From positions 20,280 to 84,279 of the IMG/VR virus record IMGVR_UViG_3300020810_001175: a stretch of 64,000 nucleotides of DNA. One strand, 5' to 3'. This document shows, piece by piece, positions 1,979-59,327 of the stretch (position 1 is the stretch's first letter; every line of letters starts with the position of its first letter). The translations under genes were made by a program, and so were the position numbers. This stretch comes from a virus. Below the pieces are notes generated by a model that saw nothing but the letters and a program-made list of their open reading frames with translations, was not told the DNA's origin and searched no databases.

Positions 1979-2571
1979 ATCCAAGTTTCCACTATTTTTT
2001 TAAATTCTTCAGGCCAGATATCTTTAACTAACTTATTTGTATTGTCAGTCATAAAATTAATATTGATATTGATTCTTGATCTTTTATCTGTGCAAGTTGA
2101 TCCACTGTGTTTTTTATTGCTAGGAAATATAATCATAGAATTTGCTACACTATCTATTTTAGTTCCGTCTTCAAATTCTGTATATCCATTGTTTGTGTTA
2201 ACGTAATATATTGCTGTCCAACTTAAAGGCACTGTGGTATCTGTGTGAAATCCGTGCGATACTTGGCTGTCATTTCCTGGTATATTGTTTGCTTTTACTC
2301 TAATAAAACTGTAAGGTTGAAGTATCTCAAAAATAGGGAACAACATCTGCCAATTTTCATGTGAAGTTATCACCGTGGAATTCTGATGGAACCAATGCAC
2401 AAATTGTACTTGATATTTTGTATCAGTCATCATGTCTTTTGTGTCCACAACGTGGTCATTGTAAAACCAAGGAAATCTATCAGAAGTTAATTGTTGTTGT
2501 AAAATATCAAATGCTTTTTGATTCAAAACATTTGTACAAATCAATTTACTTTTTTCTATTTTAGTTTCCAT
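1975..2571 (-). CDS. 2-oxoglutarate/Fe(II)-dependent oxygenase-like protein
   Basis: A 198-residue protein with the double-stranded beta-helix iron site of 2OG oxygenases: HTD (His109, Asp111), a distal His155 in KKHSGS and a 2OG-binding Arg in DKRSRI about 11 residues later. The family hydroxylates small molecules, peptides or nucleic acid bases; the substrate cannot be read from sequence. It lies between hldE (11-base overlap) and hldD (4-base overlap), so a role in modifying a heptose-containing molecule is possible, but inferred only from context. Confidence 0.75.
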   Translation of the reverse strand: METKIEKSKLICTNVLNQKAFDILQQQLTSDRFPWFYNDHVVDTKDMMTDTKYQVQFVHWFHQNSTVITSHENWQMLFPIFEILQPYSFIRVKANNIPGNDSQVSHGFHTDTTVPLSWTAIYYVNTNNGYTEFEDGTKIDSVANSMIIFPSNKKHSGSTCTDKRSRINININFMTDNTNKLVKDIWPEEFKKIVETWI

Positions 2572-3811
2572 TTTTAAATTTTTCTAATATATTTGTAGTT
2601 GAAAAACCTTGTACAGTTGGAAATATTACAACTTCAGCCATATCATTACCCACTGTGGTTTCTATCGTGTAATCTCCACCTTTAACTATCACATTAGGTT
2701 GATGTATTTTAATTGCTTCTAAAGGAGTATCTTCATCGAACACAACCACTTTGTCTACCCATGGTAATTGTAGCAACTGTTGTTCTCTGATTAATGTGTT
2801 GTTTAAAGGTCTATCGTTTCCTTTTAATCTTTTTACACTGGCATCTGAATTAATACCCACAATCAATTTGTCTCCTTGCAGTTTGGCAAATTTTAAAAGT
2901 TCTAAATGTCCTTTGTGTAGTATATCAAACACACCGTTGGTCCAAACAATTCTATCTTCGATATCAGTTTTTTTAACCACAGTAACTCCTCTGTGTTGTA
3001 CGACTCTACTTGCACCTTTCAATGCTTTTTCACAAGCATCTATCATTGAACTGCCTTGTTCATGATAATAAACAATGATTGCTAATACTGTGTCACCAGC
3101 ACCACTGACATCTGCCAACTCAACAGCATCTCCTGTGATGTGTTTGTATATGTTCTCTCCCACAACATGAATACCATTAGCACCATCGGTAACAATTAAC
3201 CATTGCCAATTGTGATGTATTCTTTTTATGTCTGCTGTGTGTGGATCAAATTTACCAAACCAATTTTCGTATTCTTTCATGTTGGGTTTAATCAAATATG
3301 AGCCGTAATAAATGTTGGGATCTTGCTTGGGATCTACATAAATTCTTTTGACTTTGTCTTGAATACGTCTCACTAGATGTTCTTTAACAACACCTTTGTT
3401 GTAATCACTAATAATAACAATGTCATTGTTTTGTAAATTTTTAAGTAAAGTTTCTTGTGGTGTATCGCGTGTGTATTCTTCCTCTTTGTCCAGTCTTAAC
3501 AGGTGCTGTCCATCAGGTCCTATCATACGTGTTTTGGTAGTGGTTGCAGAACCATCCTGACATAGGTAGGTTTTAATGCTGTTTTCTAGTAAAATTTCCT
3601 GTATTTTATGTCCTGGGGCATCGTTGCCCACCGATCCATACAGATGCGTGTCTGCGCCAAGATTTGACAGGTTTAAAGCGAGGTTTCCAGCGCCTCCTAC
3701 GTTGTGATTACGTGTGTATTCTTTTAATACTAGTGCAGATGCTTCAGGAGACACTTTGGTACAATCTCCTTGCACCCATATGTCCAACATAACATCGCCA
3801 ATTATTTTCAT
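2561..3811 (-). CDS. hldE: Bifunctional heptose kinase / heptose-phosphate adenylyltransferase
   Basis: Two-domain enzyme of ADP-heptose synthesis. Residues about 1-270 are a PfkB/ribokinase-type kinase (VGGAGNLALNLSNLGA substrate region; DVSGAGDTVLA with the catalytic Asp) that would phosphorylate C1 of D-glycero-D-manno-heptose 7-phosphate. Residues about 285-416 are a cytidylyltransferase-fold domain (TNGVFDILHKGHLELL with the HxGH motif; GFSTTNIL near the C terminus) that adds AMP. At 416 residues it is somewhat shorter than bacterial HldE (about 475), mainly at the N terminus. The start overlaps the Nudix stop codon (ATGA). A phosphatase for the intermediate bisphosphate (GmhB) and an isomerase (GmhA) are not in this window, so host enzymes must supply those steps if the pathway works. 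Confidence 0.9.
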   Translation of the reverse strand: MKIIGDVMLDIWVQGDCTKVSPEASALVLKEYTRNHNVGGAGNLALNLSNLGADTHLYGSVGNDAPGHKIQEILLENSIKTYLCQDGSATTTKTRMIGPDGQHLLRLDKEEEYTRDTPQETLLKNLQNNDIVIISDYNKGVVKEHLVRRIQDKVKRIYVDPKQDPNIYYGSYLIKPNMKEYENWFGKFDPHTADIKRIHHNWQWLIVTDGANGIHVVGENIYKHITGDAVELADVSGAGDTVLAIIVYYHEQGSSMIDACEKALKGASRVVQHRGVTVVKKTDIEDRIVWTNGVFDILHKGHLELLKFAKLQGDKLIVGINSDASVKRLKGNDRPLNNTLIREQQLLQLPWVDKVVVFDEDTPLEAIKIHQPNVIVKGGDYTIETTVGNDMAEVVIFPTVQGFSTTNILEKFKNGN

Positions 3812-19541: not shown

Positions 19542-21794
19542 ATGAACCTTAATACCATAGCAAAAGACCTTTTTAACAAGATCAGAGGACAATTTCCTCA
19601 GGTAACATTGGGTGATTCTCAGGGAAAAATGACCACAGAACCTACCCAAGCAAGATTTTTTGACTTTGATTTTAAAGAAGGTGGAAACACTTTAGGAAAG
19701 GTAAGTATTAGCATAAGTGAAGAAGATGGCATGGTCGTTATGCACAGCAAAGACTTTGTTGAGCAAACAGATGAGCCATTAAAACGTGGATGGTTTAATT
19801 TTCTCAAAGAATTGAGAGGTTTTGCCAAAGCAAGAGTGCTTGGATTTGATACAAGAGATATCACAAAAAGCAATCTTGAAAAAAGAGACTATGACTTTTT
19901 AGGAAAAGGAAAAGAGGTAGAAAAAGTGAGCGAATCAAATTTATACGGCACAACAAAAACAAGTTTTCAAACTGTGGGCGAAGCAAGATTAGTAATCAAA
20001 CATTCAGCACCAGTAAATCCAACAGTAGCAGGTGGACGCACACACAGAATAGAATCTCTTTTCATAGAAAACAAAGCAGGCGAAAGATTCAAGTATCCAA
20101 TGAAACATTTGAATGGTGCAAGAGCAATGGCTCGACACGTATCAGAAGGTGGAAATCCATTTGATGATTTTGGAAAACACATCACAGAGATGAGTTCAGA
20201 GTTGAATCAGTTGAGAAAATTCAAAACATACATGAACAGATCCAATGTGATGGCTGAAGGTTTAAAAAAGTATCAGTCAGTTGTGGATGAAAGAATAGAA
20301 GAAATTAAATCAAACTGTTTACGTTTACAAAAACAAACTGCTTATAAAGAATCATTTGAAAGTTTTAGCAAATCAGAATTAGCAGAAGTTCCAGAAGATG
20401 TTAAAAAAAGTTGGATTGATGAATTAACAATCAAAACATTCAATGAAGAATTACAAGATGTATTTCCTTACATCTACAAATTGGTTACAGAAAGAACAGC
20501 AATAGAAGAACTAGGACCTAACTCATTTGAAGCACACGGATATCAAGGTGGCGTAGAGCCAAGAACGTTAAGATACGATCTTGCAGGAGACTTTGATCAA
20601 GACAGAGGTGTAAGTGAAAAAGATTCTGAAGATATAAAAAATCTTTTAGCAAAGGCTGGCATTAATGCTGATGTTCAACCAGACGAATCAAGACACCAAG
20701 GTGTTGTGATACACACAGATGCATCACCAGATGATGTAGAACAAGTGTTGGGTGGTATGATTGAAACCATCGATAATTTCCATGAATTTGAATCAGCAAT
20801 GGAATCAATTGTGAGAGAAGACAATGGATTGTTTTCACAAGATGCTGATGAACAAGCAGAAGCATTAGAAAAATTAAACACACTGATGGCAAAACATTTT
20901 CCAGCAGGTGTAAATGGTACCAACGGTATTGAAAGTTTACAAGGCATAATTGATGACGAAGAATTAAATGACGAAATTCAAAAAGCGGCAAGCGAAGATT
21001 CAGACATCTGCATACGTCCAATGATTATGGACTATGTGGCACAAAAAGATCCTACACTGGTTTCAAAAATTAGCACAGGCGACATGAAGCAAGAAGACGA
21101 AGCAATCACATTTGAAGACATCAAACCTTATGTTTCTATGTACAAAGGTGAAGATGGCAAAATGGTGTATGATGTGTTAGACAAAGATGGAGAATCAGTA
21201 GAAAAATTTGCTGATGCCAAAGGAGCAATGGCATATTTGAAACAAAATTTCAACAAATTAAAAAATAAAGAAGTTCAAACAGAAAACGAAACAGATTACG
21301 AAGGCTCGTTTGAATACGAATTACCAGGTGATGATGGTGAAATGGCTTATGGTACAATTCATTACAAAGCCATCAACGGTGTAGTTGATCCAAACTCTTT
21401 GAGAGGTGAATACGAATATGATGGTAATCACAAAGTAGATGATGACTATGCTAATGAAGTGATTAAACCAGGTGGCCCAGAACACGAAGAAGCATTAAAA
21501 GCCGCTCAAGAAGATTATGATTACGAAGCAAGTCGTATGAAATCTAAATTTGGTATAGAAGATCAAGAAGAAAAATCATTCAAAGACAAAGAACAAACTG
21601 TGGATGAATTTGTGAAAAGTTTCTTTGACTACACATCAAATCAATTTCCAAAAGGCGAAACAGCAGTGCTAACATCAGTAGAAAAGAAATTTGGTGACAA
21701 TGCTGTATCAACTGCACAGGAAACAATTCAGAAGTTAATGGCAAACAAAGATCCCGAAATTGCCAAAATCAAAAAATTAGCAGGCGTTCAATAA
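19542..21794 (+). CDS. Large conserved phage protein, probable virion component
   Basis: A 750-residue acidic protein with its own late promoter. It begins with a globular segment (IRGQFPQVTLGD, ARFFDFDFKEGG), then VNPTVAGGRTHRIESLFIEN, a long helical middle, an acidic region, and ends with FVKSFFDYTSNQFPKGETAV and KIKKLAGVQ. No enzyme signature found. Size and late expression suggest a capsid-associated or internal virion protein. Function unknown. Confidence 0.75.
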   Translation: MNLNTIAKDLFNKIRGQFPQVTLGDSQGKMTTEPTQARFFDFDFKEGGNTLGKVSISISEEDGMVVMHSKDFVEQTDEPLKRGWFNFLKELRGFAKARVLGFDTRDITKSNLEKRDYDFLGKGKEVEKVSESNLYGTTKTSFQTVGEARLVIKHSAPVNPTVAGGRTHRIESLFIENKAGERFKYPMKHLNGARAMARHVSEGGNPFDDFGKHITEMSSELNQLRKFKTYMNRSNVMAEGLKKYQSVVDERIEEIKSNCLRLQKQTAYKESFESFSKSELAEVPEDVKKSWIDELTIKTFNEELQDVFPYIYKLVTERTAIEELGPNSFEAHGYQGGVEPRTLRYDLAGDFDQDRGVSEKDSEDIKNLLAKAGINADVQPDESRHQGVVIHTDASPDDVEQVLGGMIETIDNFHEFESAMESIVREDNGLFSQDADEQAEALEKLNTLMAKHFPAGVNGTNGIESLQGIIDDEELNDEIQKAASEDSDICIRPMIMDYVAQKDPTLVSKISTGDMKQEDEAITFEDIKPYVSMYKGEDGKMVYDVLDKDGESVEKFADAKGAMAYLKQNFNKLKNKEVQTENETDYEGSFEYELPGDDGEMAYGTIHYKAINGVVDPNSLRGEYEYDGNHKVDDDYANEVIKPGGPEHEEALKAAQEDYDYEASRMKSKFGIEDQEEKSFKDKEQTVDEFVKSFFDYTSNQFPKGETAVLTSVEKKFGDNAVSTAQETIQKLMANKDPEIAKIKKLAGVQ

Positions 21795-45804: not shown

Positions 45805-46803
45805 ATGATAGTTTGGGGAATAACAGGAAATAATCACGATGCCAGTCTGGCTGTGATGGAATATCATGTAAAAGGTTTAACAGACAGATATGGATTGTAT
45901 GTTCATTGGGCTGGTAAGAGTTCAGACTTCAGTGGCATACCTGGTGATCCTAACCTGTGTCCAGAAATGTTAGCACACGTGAGATCAAATCCTAGATGGG
46001 CTCACCCGGCAAAAATAATTTGGTATGAAAAACCTTTTAAGAAGAGTATGCGTCAACTGTTGGCAGGACAAGGATTAAAATTTAAAGAAAATGACGTGAA
46101 GAAATTTTTACAGCGTCAAGGTATCCATGTTCCTGTTGAATATATAGATCATCATATGAGCCATGCGGCATATGGTTATTACACATCTCCATACAACAAC
46201 GCGGCAGTTGTTGTGCTAGATTCAATTGGTGAGTTTGAAACATACACAATTTGGCACGGACAAGGAGATCAATTAGAAAAGAAATACACACAAAGATACC
46301 CACACAGTATTGGTTTATTTTATTCAGCCATGACTCAACGATGTGGATTCAAAGCCAATGCAGAAGAGTACAAACTGGAACAATTGGCACAAAAAGGCAA
46401 CTGGCGAAAATATCATAGAATCATGATGGAAGAAATTATCAAAACCAGAATGCCTTTCAAGACAAGAGTTAATCTACACCGAGGATGTAATTGGTGGAGA
46501 CCAGAATTAAATTCGGAACAGGATACAGCAGATTTGGCGGCAACCACACAACACATTTTTGAACAAGTGTTGATGTGTGCCAGTTCGTGGATTCAAATGA
46601 ATATTCCTACTAATAACATTGTTTTGGTAGGAGGTTGTGCATTGAACAAGACTGCTAGAATCAAACTGGCATCGGTTTGGGATGACATATGGGTTCCAAA
46701 AAATCCTGGCGATCCTGGTTCATGCATAGGTGCTGTGTGTGCCAAATACAACAAGCACATTGACAATTCAGACAAAATGTGGTATAATAAGGACAATGGT
46801 TAA
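45805..46803 (+). CDS. NodU-type carbamoyltransferase, N-terminal domain only
   Basis: A 332-residue protein related to carbamoyltransferases (NodU/TobZ/CmcH): WGITGNNHDASLAVME, YIDHHMSHAAYGYYTSPY (metal-binding HHxxHA), AAVVVLDSIGEFET (ATP/carbamoyl site) and IVLVGGCALNKTARIKL. Full family members are about 550-600 residues with a C-terminal YrdC-like domain; here only the first domain remains, as in other marine phages. It would carbamoylate an OH on a sugar or cyclitol. Ends inside the promoter of the helicase gene. Confidence 0.82.
   Translation: MIVWGITGNNHDASLAVMEYHVKGLTDRYGLYVHWAGKSSDFSGIPGDPNLCPEMLAHVRSNPRWAHPAKIIWYEKPFKKSMRQLLAGQGLKFKENDVKKFLQRQGIHVPVEYIDHHMSHAAYGYYTSPYNNAAVVVLDSIGEFETYTIWHGQGDQLEKKYTQRYPHSIGLFYSAMTQRCGFKANAEEYKLEQLAQKGNWRKYHRIMMEEIIKTRMPFKTRVNLHRGCNWWRPELNSEQDTADLAATTQHIFEQVLMCASSWIQMNIPTNNIVLVGGCALNKTARIKLASVWDDIWVPKNPGDPGSCIGAVCAKYNKHIDNSDKMWYNKDNG
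46760..46788 (+). promoter_or_regulatory. Sigma70 promoter of helicase gp41
   Basis: TTGACA (46760-46765), 17 bases, TATAAT (46783-46788), both perfect. The gp41 ATG (46796) follows after seven bases. It lies wholly within the 3' end of the carbamoyltransferase gene. Confidence 0.85.
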
Positions 46804-49816: not shown

Positions 49817-50884
49817 TTAATCTATGATCTGTCTTTTGACGCCTCGTCTTTTGACATCAAGTGTGCTACAATGTATTCCACCGTCCCAAAACAAATAGTG
49901 TCTCTGTGGCACAACGTGACAGTCTATGTGTAAGGACTTCAGTTTTGCAAACAGTTTGGGTATGTGTCGTGCAAACACAATGTTGTTTCTGTCTATCACC
50001 AACACATTGAGATCAAAGCACACTTCTTGATTGTAACCTCTCCAATTCTCCAAGTACTTGTTGACCCAAGCAATGTCCATTCTATTTTTGGCTTCTGCAT
50101 AATCCTGCACAAATCTATCCATTTTCAATTCAGGCAAACAGTCACTCACATCAATCAACTGTTTGTTGCGTAAGCAGTCTGGTACCCAATCCATGCCTGC
50201 GTGTATCACAGTGTCATCATCTATCATGATAAAGCCGTGGTCAATGTGTCCAAAGCCGTTAAAACGTGTGCCTGTGTTGGGAATAAATCTGTACTCCGGC
50301 AACTCTCTGCGGCACCATTCCAATCCTGTTGCTGAGCCAGGACCTTCTGGATTCACAATGAAGGCATCTCCTGCTCGAAACATGGTGGCTGTGTGCCACA
50401 ACACTCTGTCCATTAATTTGTCCTTGTAGGTTCTATCATTCACAAACCAATCATCTTCAGTGTTTAAATTCTGTAACACGGGCGGGGGTTGGCTGATCCA
50501 ACGATAGCCTTCACGAAACATCTTTTCAAATATGGGATAATAACTCACAGCATCAAAGTATCTGTCGGTGTAACTGGTGTATGTCTGTATGATTGTGCGA
50601 CCCATCACCATCAGTGCATCTCTGGGCACTATGGGAGCAATGGGAAATTCCACATCAAAATCAGGCATATGTATGGGATCATAGTACTCATGCACAGTGG
50701 GACGCATCACTTCAACGCCACCTTTCTTTAAAAAGTCTGCTAGATTGTCCAGATCTCGTTTGGTTTCTTCCAGGATACGATTGAACTTGCTGGGATCCTT
50801 ATGATGCAACACGTGAACCTGTCCGGGATCGTATGTGTCTCCCACTATGATTGATTCCAACGGATCGTATTCTGTGTATATCAT
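49817..50884 (-). CDS. Amidinotransferase (GATM/StrB family)
   Basis: A 355-residue protein of the arginine:glycine / arginine:inosamine amidinotransferase family. Catalytic residues: Asp173 (RAGDAF), His213 and Asp215 (FGHIDHG), and nucleophile Cys339 (GGIHCSTLD). The family moves the amidino group from arginine to a primary amine, giving a guanidino product and ornithine. It is last in a leftward operon, overlapping the oxygenase gene by 4 bases. Length is normal for the family (StrB about 350). DNA here is visibly richer in G+C than the phage's core. The acceptor is unknown. Confidence 0.85.
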   Translation of the reverse strand: MIYTEYDPLESIIVGDTYDPGQVHVLHHKDPSKFNRILEETKRDLDNLADFLKKGGVEVMRPTVHEYYDPIHMPDFDVEFPIAPIVPRDALMVMGRTIIQTYTSYTDRYFDAVSYYPIFEKMFREGYRWISQPPPVLQNLNTEDDWFVNDRTYKDKLMDRVLWHTATMFRAGDAFIVNPEGPGSATGLEWCRRELPEYRFIPNTGTRFNGFGHIDHGFIMIDDDTVIHAGMDWVPDCLRNKQLIDVSDCLPELKMDRFVQDYAEAKNRMDIAWVNKYLENWRGYNQEVCFDLNVLVIDRNNIVFARHIPKLFAKLKSLHIDCHVVPQRHYLFWDGGIHCSTLDVKRRGVKRQIID

Positions 50885-51432
50885 ATGTTCAAATATTTCA
50901 CGTGCATAAAAGCCTGTAGACTGCGTCGTTTCACATCTGGCGTCACAATTTTTGTCACAGCATGATACAGATCTTCGTTGTTGATTATGATTCTATTGCC
51001 GATGGGTTCCACATATTCGCCTCTGTCTGCATCATCCTTGCGGAACAAAAACAATCCGCCATCCTTAAAGTCCCACGTTTCATTTAAGAAAAATGTCACT
51101 CCCATAAAATCTATTTCTTCTTTTTCCCAATCAAGAAATCTGTCCTTGTGCCATGTGCTCACATAAGGATATTTCATTTCATGATATCGCAGTGTTTGAT
51201 CGTGTCCTGTGAGCAATTCCTCTGTGAAGTAACCTTTTTCCACCAACAAGCCAAAAAAGAAATCTTTTATTTCTTTGTTGAGATAGAACAGATTACAATC
51301 GTCTGTTTCGTGATGATCCACTTCATCATCGTATCTTTCAAAACGTCCATTGTGCTGTGTGATATCTGCATCAATCATCTGATTGATTTGAACCAATTGC
51401 TCTGATGTCAAAAAATTATCTTTTATGATCAT
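50881..51432 (-). CDS. 2OG-Fe(II) oxygenase
   Basis: A 183-residue hydroxylase: HKD (His95, Asp97) in STWHKDRFLDW, distal His157 in LYHAVTKI, and Arg170 (RRSLQAF) for 2-oxoglutarate. It is located between an aminotransferase and an amidinotransferase, with 4-base overlaps on both sides, so it probably hydroxylates the same small molecule. Substrate unknown. Confidence 0.82.
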   Translation of the reverse strand: MIIKDNFLTSEQLVQINQMIDADITQHNGRFERYDDEVDHHETDDCNLFYLNKEIKDFFFGLLVEKGYFTEELLTGHDQTLRYHEMKYPYVSTWHKDRFLDWEKEEIDFMGVTFFLNETWDFKDGGLFLFRKDDADRGEYVEPIGNRIIINNEDLYHAVTKIVTPDVKRRSLQAFMHVKYLNI

Positions 51433-52523
51433 TGTAACTGTCCTTTCAACACATCAAAATATTCTTCTGTGGCATTGATGGGTATGATAAAAAATTTATG
51501 ATCATCGCCTTTGATCAAATCAAATAGTGTACCAAACTGTCCCACTATGGTATAGCCTGCTTGTTCAAACGTTGCTTTTGCTGTTGCCACAATGTTGTGA
51601 TGTTGTGTCATCAATTGTTCCTGATGCAGTATATCAATATATTTAATACAACTCAATATGCCAGGCAGACTGTAATTGTATGTGAACCCGTGTTCCCAAT
51701 CAAAATCATCTGGCAACACATCATCAATCTTTGAGTTGTACATGGTGATGCTGAGCGGAAAAAATCCACCTGTGATTGCTTTGCCCATGGTGAATATGTC
51801 TGGCTGAATGGGAGTTTGTTGCCACCCAACAAATGTGCCTGTCTTTCCGCCGCCAATAAAAATGTCGTCCACAATCACAACCACACCCTGCTCCTGCAAC
51901 TGTTTTATCTTGTTCCAGAATTCTTTTGAGTTGGGTCTCAATTGTTCACCATATGAACACGTTTCCACCATCACACACATCACTTGATTCCACTCTGTTT
52001 GATTGATATCAAAATCTCTTTTCAGTCGGATCACTTGGTCATAAGGTTTTAAAGTGTAGAAAGGATCGGTAAACAGACTGTCTCCCATGTTGTAGTTTAA
52101 AAATGTAGAGCCGTGATAACTGTTTTCAAAACACACAATTTTTGTGCGTTGTGTTTGTCCTAGCAGTTTTTGATAAGCACTGGCAAGTTTGACCGCACCT
52201 TCGTTGGCATCTGATCCACTGAGAGCAAATATACTTTTGTAGCCTGTCATGTGAAACAGAGTGTCGGACAATTGATAACTGGGTTCATTGAGATACAGTT
52301 CTTCATTCTGCACAATGCTTTCTGCTATTTCTGGTTTCACTCGAATATTGTCATACACATAATCCAATATGTCATGTCGGTCAAACCCCAATGTGAAACA
52401 ACCATAGTGCAACAATGGATCTATTATCTTCTTACTGTTGTCCATGTAACCGTACTGCCAATGAGGTTTGGCAACTGTGGTCAATCTTTGTACACCTGGT
52501 ATGAGTCCTTTAATTGATTTCAT
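51429..52523 (-). CDS. Class III (PLP-dependent) aminotransferase
   Basis: A 364-residue enzyme of the ornithine/acetylornithine/GSA class: GSDANEGAVKLA (about 103-114), SYHGST (136-140), VIVDDIFIGGGKTG with the PLP-binding Asp (219-220), and the PLP lysine Lys248 in FTMGKAITGG. It makes an amine from an aldehyde or ketone, or the reverse. Together with the amidinotransferase it could make and then guanidinylate an amine, like the StsC-StrB pair of streptidine synthesis. Shorter than the family (about 420), mainly at the C terminus. Confidence 0.88.
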   Translation of the reverse strand: MKSIKGLIPGVQRLTTVAKPHWQYGYMDNSKKIIDPLLHYGCFTLGFDRHDILDYVYDNIRVKPEIAESIVQNEELYLNEPSYQLSDTLFHMTGYKSIFALSGSDANEGAVKLASAYQKLLGQTQRTKIVCFENSYHGSTFLNYNMGDSLFTDPFYTLKPYDQVIRLKRDFDINQTEWNQVMCVMVETCSYGEQLRPNSKEFWNKIKQLQEQGVVVIVDDIFIGGGKTGTFVGWQQTPIQPDIFTMGKAITGGFFPLSITMYNSKIDDVLPDDFDWEHGFTYNYSLPGILSCIKYIDILHQEQLMTQHHNIVATAKATFEQAGYTIVGQFGTLFDLIKGDDHKFFIIPINATEEYFDVLKGQLQ

Positions 52524-52531
52524 AATCTTAA

Positions 52532-53068
52532 TTATTGTATTTCAAACTCCAATTGATCGTATGTGATGTCATTGGAATCTTCAAATTGTTTTTTGGATTC
52601 TAAACTTACTGTGATCGGCAAACTCATATCCACAAAATTTTGAACAGATATCTTTTTAGTTTCGCCTTTGTGAAATGTTTTATCAAGAGTGTGTGTTTGA
52701 TCATTAATCTTTAGCGTTACACAGTATTGATCAGTTAATTTTTCACTGCCTTGTACAAAATTTTTTCTATTAAAATTTGTGGTGCATATAGAACTGTTGC
52801 TATCAAACACAAAGTCCACTTCGGATTTTTCTTTGATTTCTCCAAAAGAAATATCATAAATTAAACTCACTGAGTTCACACTGTCTGAATCGAATAATAT
52901 TTGATCACTCAATGTTAAAGGTAAATTTTCTTCAGCATCATTAATATTTTCAAACACAACAGCATCGTTAATCATCACAGTAAGATTGTTTTTGTATTGA
53001 TGCTTTTCTAAACTGAAATAATTTTTGCCTTTTTCTTTTGGACAACGCAGTGTGAAAATTTTATTCAT
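52532..53068 (-). CDS. Unknown protein in the amidinotransferase operon
   Basis: A 178-residue protein, Asp/Ser/Asn-rich and beta-like (NLTVMINDAVVF, SLIYDISFGEI, YCVTLKINDQTHTL). No recognised motif. Overlaps the gene before by 8 bases and is 8 bases from the aminotransferase gene. It has the look of a carbohydrate-binding or virion beta protein. Confidence 0.65.
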   Translation of the reverse strand: MNKIFTLRCPKEKGKNYFSLEKHQYKNNLTVMINDAVVFENINDAEENLPLTLSDQILFDSDSVNSVSLIYDISFGEIKEKSEVDFVFDSNSSICTTNFNRKNFVQGSEKLTDQYCVTLKINDQTHTLDKTFHKGETKKISVQNFVDMSLPITVSLESKKQFEDSNDITYDQLEFEIQ

Positions 53069-53687
53069 GTTCTATGCTGTCCTTAAACTTTAACAATGCT
53101 TCTTCAAAACTTAGATGTTCGCCTGGCAATTTCAACAGAGTTAGTGATAAAGTCCATCTGTGTTGTGTGGGATCTGGATTGTGCGTGTTGTGTAGTTGTC
53201 CAACATTTAATATGCTTGGCTTATTGATCACTGCCTGATGAACCAGTTCTATATTGTTTTCATCTGCACTGTAACATTTGTAACAATCAATGTCTGGTTC
53301 TATACCAGCCTCTTGAAAACTTTTGTTTACTTCGGTTTCATCGTGATTTATTTCTATATAGTTGCAACCAGATTTTAACTTCCACCATCTTGTGGTACTA
53401 GTTTCAGGACCCCATGTAAAATTAAGTTTACAAGCATCTCGTTGTCCAGGAGGTATCACTGTATCGTTATGAATAGGTATCGCGCCTCCATTGGGTTTGG
53501 TATAAAATCCTTCAATCACATTTGATATTTTTAAATTGTGTTGAGCCAACCATTTGAACAATTCGTCGGGCAGTTCATCCGGATTAACATACATCAAAAA
53601 ATTATCTGTTAAACCTTCAGCAAAACATTTTGGTTTATTGATAATAAATGGTAATTTGATGTATCTGTGATATATGTTGAAATTCAT
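53061..53687 (-). CDS. 2OG oxygenase-like phage protein
   Basis: A 208-residue protein. IPIHNDTVIPPGQRDACKLN (His-x-Asp) and LHNTHNPDPTQHRWTLSLTL (distal His and Arg) fit a divergent 2OG-oxygenase fold found often in marine phages. Start 53687 (MNFNIYHRYIKLP) is chosen because a perfect late promoter lies just upstream of it. First gene of the leftward operon. Confidence 0.65.
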   Translation of the reverse strand: MNFNIYHRYIKLPFIINKPKCFAEGLTDNFLMYVNPDELPDELFKWLAQHNLKISNVIEGFYTKPNGGAIPIHNDTVIPPGQRDACKLNFTWGPETSTTRWWKLKSGCNYIEINHDETEVNKSFQEAGIEPDIDCYKCYSADENNIELVHQAVINKPSILNVGQLHNTHNPDPTQHRWTLSLTLLKLPGEHLSFEEALLKFKDSIEHE

Positions 53688-53694
53688 TGTAAAA

Positions 53695-53702
53695 TATTTA
53701 TA
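53695..53702 (-). promoter_or_regulatory. Consensus T4 late promoter
   Basis: A perfect TATAAATA on the minus strand, seven bases before the ATG at 53687. It is the only exact match to the T4 consensus I noted, and drives the aminotransferase/amidinotransferase operon. Confidence 0.8.
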
Positions 53703-53900
53703 GACTGCGAAAACAACAGGTTGTAGGTATGGTTTTGATGCTGATAACCGCACATACATCAACACTGTGACTGGCCCGTGTATTGACGTCTATGACGCTT
53801 TAAAACACTGTTTTATGGTACTGTAGATGCCTATATGTTAGTGCAACAGCACCAGTCAAAATACTGCTGTTATCAACCAGGTCAAGATAAGTAATTTCAA
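53703..53900. other. Intergenic region with an inverted repeat
   Basis: A 198-base gap between divergent genes. It contains AACAGCA (53845-53851) and TGCTGTT (53865-53871), an inverted repeat with a 13-base loop. Also a weak minus-strand sigma70-like pair (TTGACT, TATAGG). No ribosome site for the downstream oxygenase gene is obvious. Confidence 0.5.
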
Positions 53901-54584
53901 ATGTCCAACGAAATTCAAAACAAAACAATCAATCTCCGTCAGTGGGAAGAAGGCAATGAGCCTCCTTTCAATCCTGAAATGGAAGTAGAGATCAGAGACT
54001 TTGTTGGTGTGTTTAAAAAAGCATACACAAAAGAATGGTGTGATCAAGCAATTAAATATTTCGATGAAATGACTAAGATGGGTTTTGGTAGATCCATACA
54101 AGAAATTTCAGGAGCACCTAGACATCTTAAAGACACACAAAATTTTAACACCACAAGATTGTATTCGCAAGGAGATAATCTTTTGAGTATAGTAGGAGTG
54201 CCTGGAGTACAGAATAAATTTTTAGATACATTTTGGGCGTGTTACAACGGAATATACAGACATCAATTTTCATCTTTGCAAACAGAAGGTGCACCACAAA
54301 TGGTGTATGAAATGAAGATTCAAAGAACAGCACCTGGTGAAGGATATCACGTGTGGCATTGGGAACAGAGCAGTAGATCAGACACCACAAGGTTTATGGT
54401 GATACAGGTATTTCTTAATGACGTGGAAGATGGTGGTGAAACAGAATTTTTATATTATCCTAGAAGACTCAAAGCAGAAGCAGGAACATTATTAATTTTT
54501 CCTGGAAATTATACTCACACACATAGAGGCAACCAGCCTTTATCTGGACCTAAGTACACAATTAATACCTGGCTAGAATTTTAA
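53901..54584 (+). CDS. 2OG-Fe(II) oxygenase, prolyl 4-hydroxylase type
   Basis: A 227-residue enzyme. The iron site reads HWE (His153, Glu155) in place of the common HxD; GGETEFLYYPRRLKAEAGTL and LIFPGNYTHTHRG supply the distal His, and PLSGPKYTINTWLEF gives the Lys that binds 2-oxoglutarate, as in prolyl 4-hydroxylases. Substrate unknown, but this subfamily acts on peptides. Confidence 0.8.
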   Translation: MSNEIQNKTINLRQWEEGNEPPFNPEMEVEIRDFVGVFKKAYTKEWCDQAIKYFDEMTKMGFGRSIQEISGAPRHLKDTQNFNTTRLYSQGDNLLSIVGVPGVQNKFLDTFWACYNGIYRHQFSSLQTEGAPQMVYEMKIQRTAPGEGYHVWHWEQSSRSDTTRFMVIQVFLNDVEDGGETEFLYYPRRLKAEAGTLLIFPGNYTHTHRGNQPLSGPKYTINTWLEF

Positions 54585-54612
54585 GGCTGGTTACTGGTTT
54601 AATTTAAATCAA

Positions 54613-54732
54613 TTAATTTTCAAAACTTTTTACGGCTTTTTCAACAAATTTTTCTAACCTGTTGTATATCCTAATAAAAAAATTTTTAATTGAAGACGTC
54701 ACGAATGTGACTATTTGTTTGACTTTTTTCAT
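54613..54732 (-). CDS. Small basic protein (39 aa)
   Basis: MKKVKQIVTFVTSSIKNFF and an amphipathic, lysine-rich remainder ending KAVKSFEN. AGGGAGAA lies about 5-10 bases upstream of the ATG, a strong ribosome site for this phage. Last gene of the leftward hemC operon, 98 bases downstream of hemC. Possible membrane-associated helix. Function unknown. Confidence 0.6.
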   Translation of the reverse strand: MKKVKQIVTFVTSSIKNFFIRIYNRLEKFVEKAVKSFEN

Positions 54733-54829
54733 TGCCTATTCTCCCTTATTTGAGTTGTTATGTTTGCCTTATTCGCAAGTTATTTACATCAGTATCGATA
54801 AAATTTATCTGCTACTATTGTTTTTATAA

Positions 54830-55690
54830 TTAAGATATAAATGCATGGACAACTTTTTGTGCTAACATTTTCCAGTTAGCAAGTTCTCCAATTTCTTGAA
54901 TATGGTGTGCTTTGGTTCCGTCATGATAAGAACAACGTATCTGCATCATTCCTTTTTCAGGTCTAGCATCTGCGGTAACGCCTATTGCTGTTTGACAATC
55001 TCCATTAACTAATTCTAAAACATATCGTTCTGCCATTAATTCAATCGTGGGCCATTCTAATATTTGAGGATTCCATATGTCTTTCATTTTGATGTCATCG
55101 CTTCTTATCTGCACAACAACTTTTCCTTGTCCTGCGGCAGGCAACAATTCTGTTTCGGGCATCACAGTGTGTTGTACTTGTACGTTTAATCTATCTAACG
55201 CACACTTTGCCATAATGATTCCATCAACTTCTTGTTTAGCAATTAAATCTATTCTTGTTTGAATATTTCCTCTTATAGGCACAAACCGCAAATCAGGTCT
55301 TTGGTCTGATAACATTTTTGCTCTACGTGGAGCACTTGTTCCTATTCTGTATCCGCTTGGAATAGAATCAAAATTTTCGAAAGGTCCAATCAACACATCA
55401 CGTCTGTCACCTTGCTCCCAGACACATCCTAATAGTTCTGTGCCGTCTGCTATTTCCGTTCCAACGTCTTTGGCACTGTGTATCGCACAATCTATTTCAC
55501 CTGAAAGTAACTTGTCTTCTATGGCAGAACAAAAAATATGTTTGCCACCCATTTCATGAATAGGAGTTGTTTGATCTATATCGCCTTGACTTTTTATTTG
55601 AATTAGTTCATAAGGTTGAACCAAACCTGACGCGGCTCCGTCTGCTTGTCTAATGGCGAGAGGTGATCCTCTAGTTCCTATCTTTAACAT
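54830..55690 (-). CDS. hemC: Porphobilinogen deaminase (hydroxymethylbilane synthase)
   Basis: A 286-residue HemC. It joins four porphobilinogens into hydroxymethylbilane, the linear tetrapyrrole precursor of haem, sirohaem and chlorophyll. Visible: IGTRGSPLA at the N terminus (usually TRxSPLAL), HSAKDVG (catalytic Asp75; the usual Pro is Gly), GTSAPRRAKML with two Arg, RGNIQTR, LPAAGQG and NGDCQTAIG with the dipyrromethane cofactor Cys232. All key residues are kept, so it is probably active. Shorter than the bacterial enzyme (about 310). Stands as an auxiliary metabolic gene among small phage genes, and no other haem gene is nearby. Confidence 0.92.
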   Translation of the reverse strand: MLKIGTRGSPLAIRQADGAASGLVQPYELIQIKSQGDIDQTTPIHEMGGKHIFCSAIEDKLLSGEIDCAIHSAKDVGTEIADGTELLGCVWEQGDRRDVLIGPFENFDSIPSGYRIGTSAPRRAKMLSDQRPDLRFVPIRGNIQTRIDLIAKQEVDGIIMAKCALDRLNVQVQHTVMPETELLPAAGQGKVVVQIRSDDIKMKDIWNPQILEWPTIELMAERYVLELVNGDCQTAIGVTADARPEKGMMQIRCSYHDGTKAHHIQEIGELANWKMLAQKVVHAFIS

Positions 55691-56953: not shown

Positions 56954-57214
56954 ATGATTACTTTAGAACAGTACAATGATATGCCCGAGTACTGGGACTA
57001 TCAACGCAAGATAGAATTCAACAAAGAAAAATGTCGCAAGGCTTGTGAGAACATACAAGAAAATTTTGGAGAGTTGTCCAGCGAAGCAGACGTAGATGAT
57101 ATGTTTGAAATGATGTGGCACCAGATTGAAGCAGAAGATTATGAAGATCCACCTTTGGATTGGGTACCAAAAAATCCTGCACTGAGATTAGAACACGAAA
57201 CATACAATAAATAA
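56954..57214 (+). CDS. Unknown acidic phage protein
   Basis: An 86-residue acidic protein: MITLEQYNDMPEYWDYQRKI, SSEADVDDMFEMMWHQIEAE. Start at 56954 fits the gap of four bases after the previous stop. No motif found. Confidence 0.65.
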   Translation: MITLEQYNDMPEYWDYQRKIEFNKEKCRKACENIQENFGELSSEADVDDMFEMMWHQIEAEDYEDPPLDWVPKNPALRLEHETYNK

Positions 57215-57218
57215 TTGC

Positions 57219-57386
57219 ATGACACACACACTAAAATACGGAACCAACGAGCCTGTTTATAATGCAGGTAACTTTCAAGAATATCATTATGAGCTGGAAC
57301 ATATGGAATGCGAGTGGAAAATAATTTACGGCACATTTAATTTGGTAACAGCATTCACATATCCTTGGATTCAAATACGCTATTGA
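57219..57386 (+). CDS. Small unknown protein (55 aa)
   Basis: MTHTLKYGTNEPVYNAGNFQ ... TAFTYPWIQIRY. Its stop codon (TGA, 57384-57386) lies inside the -35 box of the promoter at 57383. No clear ribosome site. Kept because it fits the 4-5 base gaps of its neighbours and fills an otherwise empty space. Confidence 0.5.
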   Translation: MTHTLKYGTNEPVYNAGNFQEYHYELEHMECEWKIIYGTFNLVTAFTYPWIQIRY

Positions 57387-57411
57387 CAAACAGTCAAAAA
57401 CGTGTTAAATT
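57383..57411 (+). promoter_or_regulatory. Promoter of the riboswitch transcript
   Basis: TTGACA (57383-57388), 17 bases, TAAATT (57406-57411; TTAAAT is one base earlier). The predicted transcript starts near 57418 and holds the riboswitch. Confidence 0.6.
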
Positions 57412-57454
57412 AATCACTATGTATTAAATGCATACCTGCTATGCTAAATACATA

Positions 57455-57500
57455 TACGTTCAGGCATCAGCCCGGAAGTAGGTTATACCGAAGGAACGCA
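57455..57500 (+). ncRNA. Glutamine-riboswitch-like RNA (glnA / Downstream-peptide type)
   Basis: The sequence reads CGTTCA, then CGGAAGTAGG, then CCGAAGGAACGCACC, which are the conserved parts of the glnA and Downstream-peptide RNAs, glutamine-binding riboswitches of cyanobacteria and marine metagenomes. Pairings are P1 CGTTC (57457-57461) with GAACG (57494-57498), P2 GGC (57463-57465) with GCC (57470-57472), and P3 GGT with ACC (57481-57483, 57487-57489). It lies 25 bases before an AAGGAGG ribosome site, so it could control translation of the small protein that follows. Confidence 0.85.
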
Positions 57501-57524
57501 CCTAACTTTAACAAGGAGGGTGAT

Positions 57525-57719
57525 ATGAATAGATTCAGTCATCTACTTAAAAAATACACAGAAAATAGTGTGCTAGCCAAAAAGGCAATGACGCTGTTTA
57601 GTGCTAGAAAAGAAGTAGATATCAATGCCAATGGCACACAAGGATACGTGGTAAAACACGGTCCTAATGCAGGCAAGGCATTGGCACACAGAGCAGTCAA
57701 ATCTACAAATAATTGGTAA
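57525..57719 (+). CDS. Small protein under the glutamine-riboswitch-like RNA
   Basis: A 64-residue basic protein, MNRFSHLLKKYTENSVLAKK to HRAVKSTNNW. Start 57525 has AAGGAGGG at 57513-57520, the best ribosome site in the window. Short ORFs of this size follow the Downstream-peptide RNAs in other marine genomes. It could act on nitrogen metabolism of the host, but no domain is recognised. Its stop abuts that of a gene on the other strand. Confidence 0.75.
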   Translation: MNRFSHLLKKYTENSVLAKKAMTLFSARKEVDINANGTQGYVVKHGPNAGKALAHRAVKSTNNW

Positions 57720-57983
57720 TTATTTTTTAGTAAACAAAAAAGACCTGCTGGCGGAACTGTATCTAAAATTCAAGTTTCGCCAGTGCGGTTCACTCCAAAT
57801 TGTTTTTTCCCAATGTCTACAAGCCTGATGTGTCCAGCGTTCTAAAGCCACTTTGATTTGATATCTATTGTGAGGCTGTTTGAGTGCTTCATCCATGAAT
57901 CGCACCAACTCCACATCTGAAAAGACGTCTTCTCCTTCTAGGGTGTGTCGGATGGTTTTTTTAGTGTGTCGAGTGGATCGCAT
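57720..57983 (-). CDS. Unknown basic protein
   Basis: An 87-residue protein: MRSTRHTKKTIRHTLEGEDV, LVRFMDEALKQPHN and a C-terminal Trp/His/Arg-rich segment (ERWTHQACRHWEKTIWSEPH). Tail-to-tail with the riboswitch gene. Late motif on the minus strand 10 bases before its ATG. Basic charge suggests nucleic acid contact, but nothing more can be said. Confidence 0.6.
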   Translation of the reverse strand: MRSTRHTKKTIRHTLEGEDVFSDVELVRFMDEALKQPHNRYQIKVALERWTHQACRHWEKTIWSEPHWRNLNFRYSSASRSFLFTKK

Positions 57984-57993
57984 ACTAAAAGTA

Positions 57994-58014
57994 TATTTAT
58001 TCAGCCGATAAATA
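57994..58014. promoter_or_regulatory. Divergent late promoters
   Basis: ATATTTAT-TCAGCCG-ATAAATAT: an inverted repeat carrying AATAAATA on the minus strand (57994-58001) and GATAAATA on the plus strand (58007-58014). The plus copy is five bases from the ATG at 58020, the minus copy ten from 57983. Same design as 6851-6870. Confidence 0.7.
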
Positions 58015-58019
58015 TTGTT

Positions 58020-59327
58020 ATGCGTTACAGAGAATTCAAAAAAACAATAACAGAGGCCACTATTGCCTCATCTACACCTTCCAGTATACCTACATACATT
58101 GCAAATTTAAATCAGTTATTATCAACTAATCAACCCATTCTAGCAGGTAAACAGGGAGAAATTAATTTTGTTCCTGATCCGAATCAAAAAGTCAACAGTA
58201 TCGCAGATGTGATTAAGGGTAAGATTGACAATAAACCTGCTGAAATACAAGTGAGCAAAGTTTTCAAAAGTGCCGATGTAAAAGGCAAAGCGGGGAGATC
58301 ATTCAATTTAGGTAATGCAACCGAAGGAATGTTTGCCACTGCTATCTATACAAGATTGATCACAGACAAAGATATTTCAATACAGGGTTTAAAATCTAGT
58401 TTGGCTAAATTACCGCCACACAATAAAAACGGTGTAACTGTTGGGCCTGCTTCAGTAAAAGATAGAAAAGGTATTGTAGATAAAATTCAATTGTTTATTA
58501 AATTAGATGTCAGCAGTTATGAAGGTATTAAGGATCCTCAATCTTTACAAAATTTAATTCCTCATCTACAATCAATTGTAAATTATGTAAACAATGAAGA
58601 AATAAAAACACTGACCGCAGAATTTAAAAATAATGGCACAGTTGATTCTGTAAAAGTAATATCCGATGGAGTTACAGATGCTAAAAGTTCTAAAGTAGAT
58701 GTTGAAGTAGTTTATCTCAACGACAAAGGTGAAAGAAAAGTTGTTAGATATGAAAGATCAGTTAAAACCGGAGGAGTAAAACAGTTTGGTCAAGTCACAG
58801 CCGGAGGAGCCAAGCCTGAAGATGATACAGGCAAAGGTATAACACGAACAGAACGATATGATTTACAAGAACAGTTTTGGGACGATTTTGAAATTGATAT
58901 TTCCGCTTCGCAGGATGACTTTGAAGATTGGCCAGATTTTGTTGAAGCATATGATTTTACATACGCTGAAGCGGCTAAACAATTAAATGCTAAACTACAA
59001 GGTGATAAAAAAGAAAAACAAACTGTAAAAAATATTTTTGACGTGATTAAGAAACATGGGTTCGGAGATAGACCTAATGCTAAAACTGTAGACTTTGGAC
59101 CGAAAGGTTACAAAATTTTAGATTATAAAAAACTAGATGACTTCATTGAGAAAACAGATTTATCAGCAAAATTTATAAAAGAACAAAAGAGACCAGGAGT
59201 CGTAATACAAGATCAAAACGGAAAAGATTTTGTGATAATAAGATTGTACAAAGGTGAAACCAAAATGACCAACATGATAGAACGTGGTCCGGCAATGGAA
59301 CAAATAGTAAAAGTAAAAGAAGGTTAA
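58020..59327 (+). CDS. Unknown late protein
   Basis: A 435-residue protein beginning MRYREFKKTITEAT. The region NATEGMFATAIYTRLI and later VDVEVVYLNDKGERKVVRYE might form a nuclease-like or beta-sheet domain, and the last 100 residues (VIKKHGFGDRP, VVIQDQNGKDFVIIRLYKGE) another. No catalytic motif proven. Late promoter with leaderless spacing; a virion or DNA-end function is possible. Confidence 0.65.
   Translation: MRYREFKKTITEATIASSTPSSIPTYIANLNQLLSTNQPILAGKQGEINFVPDPNQKVNSIADVIKGKIDNKPAEIQVSKVFKSADVKGKAGRSFNLGNATEGMFATAIYTRLITDKDISIQGLKSSLAKLPPHNKNGVTVGPASVKDRKGIVDKIQLFIKLDVSSYEGIKDPQSLQNLIPHLQSIVNYVNNEEIKTLTAEFKNNGTVDSVKVISDGVTDAKSSKVDVEVVYLNDKGERKVVRYERSVKTGGVKQFGQVTAGGAKPEDDTGKGITRTERYDLQEQFWDDFEIDISASQDDFEDWPDFVEAYDFTYAEAAKQLNAKLQGDKKEKQTVKNIFDVIKKHGFGDRPNAKTVDFGPKGYKILDYKKLDDFIEKTDLSAKFIKEQKRPGVVIQDQNGKDFVIIRLYKGETKMTNMIERGPAMEQIVKVKEG

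Follow-up and report, generated by a model that had tools for sequence, protein, structure and literature searches.

A predicted glutamine riboswitch before a small SAR11-related protein gene in a marine jumbo phage, and a candidate second nitrogen-sensing RNA in SAR11

The window analysed here is a stretch of 64,000 nucleotides (positions 20,280 to 84,279) of the IMG/VR record IMGVR_UViG_3300020810_001175, an 84,279-base virus contig representing part of a jumbo myovirus genome, and our subject is a short RNA leader within it, together with the open reading frame (ORF) of 64 amino acids that the leader precedes, which belongs to a protein family that we call family A. We propose, with a probability of roughly 0.8, that the leader is a translational glutamine riboswitch acting on this ORF, with a late transcription start and expression likely to be switched on by glutamine, that the protein is related to one of SAR11, the commonest bacteria of the ocean, and that gene and RNA have been exchanged together with the host.

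Identity and class of the aptamer

The whole window was compared with all 4227 Rfam families using cmscan, and RF01739 (Glutamine) gave the sole match above its gathering threshold; otherwise, just two sub-threshold chance matches were returned at E ≤ 1. The RF01739 match, at 57455-57502 on the plus strand, spans the full model (1-53) with no non-standard pair and scores 49.7 bits (E 6.7e-8), over the curated cut-off of 35. A preliminary description of this DNA had placed the RNA in the glnA/Downstream-peptide class and proposed Infernal searches with RF01739 and RF01704 as checks; the first was thus significant, but RF01704 gave no match in the window at E ≤ 1, so that the type 1 (glnA) part of the assignment stands and Downstream-peptide membership is rejected. 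All three conserved strings on which that description relied were located (CGTTCA at 57457-57462, CGGAAGTAGG within 57473-57482 and CCGAAGGAACGC at 57488-57499), and the RF01739 alignment places the stems P1, P2 and P3 around the invariant core CGUUC / GGAAGUA / GAAGGAACG, with CGUUC (57457-57461) pairing with GAACG (57494-57498) to form P1. The RNA had, however, been drawn as 57455-57719, of which only 57455-57502 is aptamer, the remainder being a ribosome-site hairpin and the ORF itself. The whole virus record holds one copy of the aptamer.

A pattern scan found the same layout of aptamer and ORF, with a common core, in at least 120 IMG/VR stretches, a recurrence that puts it far beyond chance. 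By sequence, then, the window RNA is a glutamine riboswitch aptamer of type 1, not of the Downstream-peptide type, and is predicted to bind its ligand. It resembles the other type 1 members in aptamer sequence, in its three-stem fold and in its place before a start codon. Among the classical members the targets are gifB/DUF4278, glnA, PII or amt genes, found in cyanobacteria and in marine metagenomes (PMC2864571, PMC6316151); here, by contrast, the gene controlled codes for a small protein of SAR11 type, and the jumbo phage that carries it is not related to cyanophages. The terminase, tail sheath and UvsX of the contig are nearest to those of the jumbo myoviruses Sinorhizobium phage Phosso, Agrobacterium phage Atu_ph07 and Pseudomonas phage PA5oct, and by these sequence markers the virus is a jumbo myovirus and no cyanophage. 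As with the Downstream-peptide motif (type 2), a short unnamed ORF follows closely on the RNA; because the RF01704 model found nothing here, this arrangement is not diagnostic of type 2.

Expression platform

Directly 3′ of P1, with no linker, lies the expression platform CACCUAACUUUAACAAGGAGGGUG (57499-57522, plus strand), a hairpin in which CACCU/GGGUG and CUU/AGG pair around the Shine–Dalgarno (SD) sequence AAGGAGG (57513-57519, plus strand). Folded alone, the 24 nucleotides past P1 form a hairpin that encloses the SD, at -8.7 kcal/mol (z -3.85), and the mean z of the ribosome-site hairpin over 90 distinct viral platforms is -3.3. The arms covary across the viral leaders, the pairs including CACCU/GGGUG, CACUU/GAGUG, CAUCU/AGAUG, CACUC/GAGUG and CGCCU/AGGUG; at least 5 base pairs form between a platform's own arms in 76% of cases, compared with 37% after arms are swapped between different types. 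The RNA had been described as lying 25 bases before the ribosome site; it does lie ahead of the SD and of the ORF, but P1 is followed by the start of the SD after about 15 nucleotides and by the ATG after 26. No terminator-like site was found in 57150-58050, which includes the interval between aptamer and ORF. Because a covarying hairpin holds the SD and a terminator is missing from this region, translational control is the best reading, and the ORF is probably controlled at this level. Attenuation of transcription, although used by some riboswitches, is highly improbable for the same two reasons, and termination was rejected as the mode of control.

The sign of the response is most likely ON at high glutamine, by analogy with the characterized type 1 and type 2 switches, both of which raise expression with glutamine in cyanobacteria (PMC6316151); the sign is thus drawn from these relatives and not from the window sequence. 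The same aptamer might instead work in the opposite direction, with glutamine stabilizing P1, the adjoining hairpin stacking on it and translation being turned OFF. P1 and the hairpin abut without a linker and are both present in the minimum-energy fold, and the aptamer core of the window can pair with the 5′ arm of the platform (-8.2 kcal/mol), an interaction that would leave the ribosome site open when no ligand is bound. This pairing, strong in the window, is nevertheless not conserved (-3.9 kcal/mol, versus -3.7 kcal/mol in shuffled platforms), so that a conserved ligand-free pairing of core and platform was rejected, and the activation seen with both characterized types also speaks against an OFF switch, which we regard as unlikely while allowing it some weight.

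A late-promoter-like box and other upstream signals

A T4-like late-promoter box, CTAAATA (57444-57450, plus strand), lies 6 nucleotides before P1. Of 131 viral leaders, 80 have the string [AC]TAAATA at a distance of 4-13 nucleotides ahead of the aptamer, compared with 1.5 in shuffles; among the family-A leaders the figure is 31 of 32. This enrichment, at a fixed distance, of a box resembling TATAAATA a few nucleotides before the putative transcript start suggests that leader and ORF would be expressed late. That the aptamer begins right at the expected late start, and that some relatives lack it, would also fit a leader whose conserved 5′ structure stabilizes the mRNA or defines the start site, ligand sensing having been lost or become irrelevant in the phage. 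Across the viral leaders, tandem aptamers included, the ligand-core strings nevertheless stay constant while P2 and P3 differ freely in sequence and length, as ligand binding predicts and unlike a simple 5′ cap, and we consider such a structural role quite improbable. Further upstream, a sigma-70-like promoter candidate, TTGACA-17-TAAATT (57383-57411, plus strand), has 10 of 12 matches, the number of such candidates in the region being no higher than chance.

The family-A protein and its SAR11 homologues

The ORF runs on the plus strand from the ATG at 57525 to a stop ending at 57719 and belongs to family A (phrog_32989; PHROG E 5.9e-11). Its members have a basic N-terminal helix followed by the motif ...GTxGYxxKxGxxxGKxxxH..., with R3, R28, G37, T38, G40, G46 and H55 among the invariant residues, and the AF2 model is confident for helix 5-27 alone. 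Family A has no Pfam match, no PDB sequence match and no fold match. Since the cyanobacterial riboswitch mainly controls DUF4278/IF17 proteins (PMC6316151), and some aptamer-led phage ORFs are YRG (DUF4278-like) peptides, in places fused to other peptides (L080, L121), the 64-residue protein and the other aptamer-led phage peptides might be glutamine-synthetase inactivating factors of the IF7/IF17 kind. We find this improbable, however, because family A, compared by profile with the YRG families and with one IF7 sequence, gave a probability of about 1% or less, and the Pfam, PDB and fold searches point the same way.

IMG/VR holds 47 family-A loci, and 25 of the 41 relatives with upstream DNA carry the aptamer. 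Seven of the phage relatives (L006, L008, L011, L012, L022, L025 and L035) have no aptamer; in its place, a small hairpin, TTAGGTTCACCTAA, immediately precedes the SD. At L004 and L005 (2837-2976) the aptamer match extends over 140 nucleotides, with a large insertion; these copies are not decayed, as Rfam matches both above gathering, at 43.4 and 38.7 bits, respectively.

The 64 residues of the preliminary description are confirmed and its central claim, a glutamine-class aptamer before a phage ORF of this length, is borne out by the covariance score, the conserved ribosome-site hairpin and the recurrence in relatives; the family is not confined to phages, however, as homologues lie on SAR11 chromosomes. 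All but one of the 33 family-A loci in cellular genomes are titled Pelagibacter, Pelagibacteraceae or Pelagibacterales, and the gene, often placed after infB-rbfA-pnp, is present in 68 of the 99 SAR11 genomes of that family, a set with many single-cell or metagenome assemblies. In two SAR11 genomes, G016 and G044 (L228 and L229, on contigs G016:C13 and G044:C1), a full RF01739 aptamer of 60.2 bits stands just before the chromosomal family-A gene, with the same platform type as in the window and with TctA, MFS and DctP transporter genes as neighbours; the G044 copy lies on a 1.28-Mb contig. In a tree built from few columns, the riboswitch-led SAR11 protein groups with that of phage locus L113 (support 97/92), so that the riboswitch seems to have travelled with its gene. 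The tree supports at least one joint exchange of the gene and its RNA control between phage and host, in either direction.

Proposed mechanism

It seems most likely that, late in infection, RNA synthesis would start just before P1, at the box at 57444-57450, and that the leader would fold into the three-stem aptamer and then, as folding and covariation suggest, into the linkerless hairpin that hides the ribosome site. Binding of glutamine would shift the balance of this hairpin and thereby set translation of the ORF, most probably upwards. The phage product is related to a small basic protein of SAR11 and, when glutamine is abundant, would most likely adjust the physiology of nitrogen or of translation, and the ORF may in this way tune a factor to the nitrogen state of the host.

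Some observations weigh against this proposal. Nearest-neighbour folding gives P1 and the ribosome-site hairpin together, so that secondary structure alone does not explain how binding would open or close the hairpin. The family-A protein does not need the aptamer, given that 16 of the 41 relatives and the copies in pelagiphage podoviruses are without one. Moreover, family A showed no homology to glutamine-synthetase inactivating factors or DUF4278 in the profile comparison, in which one sequence stood for IF7.

Other viral leaders and phages Melnitz and Mosig

The ORFs behind the aptamers of the viral survey fall into several small families, of which A is the largest; the others are B (50 amino acids), C (about 33), D, E (32) and G (49), together with the YRG/DUF4278-like peptides. 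Profile comparison found no mutual homology among families A, B, C, D, E and G, and an N-terminal domain common to them was rejected for want of profile support. Family G often stands behind tandem aptamers, which occur in leaders L061, L065, L121, L122, L135, L145, L152, L159 and L162, mostly before ORFs of 33-49 amino acids.

The riboswitches of phages Melnitz and Mosig (PMC9004378) have the same aptamer as the window (52.8 and 50.0 bits, respectively, with RF01739) and a short ORF behind it, and Melnitz also has the same kind of platform; they differ from the window in the gene that is led. In Mosig (MT647606; L299 807-1032) the aptamer lies 16 nucleotides before a family-B gene annotated merely as hypothetical, whereas in Melnitz (MZ577097 near 46400-46567; L173 1499-1668) an unannotated 32-residue ORF of family C, MTLYQQWCYLKAQKEYRRRQKILMYFRIRLKG, follows directly. 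The Melnitz riboswitch has been read as controlling the transfer-messenger RNA (PMC9004378). That RNA, however, lies upstream of the aptamer and the 32-residue ORF downstream, so the published link appears doubtful on sequence grounds.

Elsewhere in the window, the jumbo phage carries metabolic genes at 49817-55690 and 2561-3811, both on the minus strand, for porphobilinogen deaminase, a class-III aminotransferase and a PfkB-cytidylyltransferase fusion.

A second RNA before families A and B in SAR11

Most of the SAR11 family-A leaders first read contain an element without an Rfam match, which we described by the models R1 and R2. Against Rfam, the R1 leader gave nothing above gathering and, at E ≤ 5, only chance-level matches to unrelated families. 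In its fold, a hairpin CCAU..AUGG has a loop that pairs with a short tail past an A-rich linker, and a second hairpin, loop and tail repeat the arrangement, giving two tandem H-type pseudoknots. The covariation set, initially nine sequences and later 15, has 97.8% of its cells paired, and eight of the 18 pairs differ on both sides, compared with 0-1 when the partners are slid.

Model R2 matches 47 of 297 SAR11-order genomes, with one copy in each. Five of the matches are weak (31.8 bits) and likely to be chance; the three of these that were read (L295-L297) have one common sequence, lie within coding sequence and were discarded as chance-like. Each stronger match read stands before family A or family B, and the SAR11 family B is homologous to the phage family B (profile probability 97.1%, E 6.7e-11), whose genes are also found behind glutamine aptamers. 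The double-pseudoknot leader thus precedes the same two unrelated families as the aptamer, but has an unrelated fold. Since two unrelated RNAs share two unrelated proteins, a common signal is indicated rather than autoregulation by the encoded protein, which is unlikely for R1, and this signal may be glutamine. By its sequence context, the R1/R2 leader is a candidate new sensor of glutamine or nitrogen in SAR11. The fuller proposition, that it forms a new glutamine-sensing class through which SAR11 reads nitrogen by RNA onto A and B, while phages carry both under the known riboswitch, is tentative, and we hold it at somewhat under even odds.

The leader occurs at L193 (5921-5999 region), L180 (5920-6000 region) and some 40 further SAR11 loci (L207-L221, L268-L292). 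Loci L230-L241 have a variant with an extra hairpin before the last A-rich linker, and L242-L246 have a third type of leader before SAR11 family A, in which the loop of the hairpin GCAUAACUGAUAUGC can pair with a downstream UCAGU. The palindrome GCATACCTGCTATGC, at 57430-57444 (plus strand) in the window, recurs ahead of the family-A aptamers of phages and, in some SAR11 genomes, ahead of the R1 leader; written as GCATAnCTGnTATGC, at these window positions and at loci L264-L266, it is a possible regulator site.

Significance

Until now the described range of glutamine riboswitches was cyanobacteria, to which they were said to be restricted (PMC6316151), together with a small number of phages. 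The class now extends to a lineage of jumbo phages and to two SAR11 chromosomes, in each case on small unnamed proteins, while the reading of a published phage riboswitch, that of Melnitz, is corrected. Families A and B are two protein families directly open to functional testing. The response of SAR11 to nitrogen limitation is reportedly independent of PII and, with A and B standing behind either RNA, there is now a concrete candidate for nitrogen sensing without PII in these bacteria, a question open since Smith et al. in 2013. Because SAR11 relatives of family A have either the same switch or another, unclassified RNA in front of them, the sequences suggest an RNA-based nitrogen sensor in both a marine virus and SAR11.
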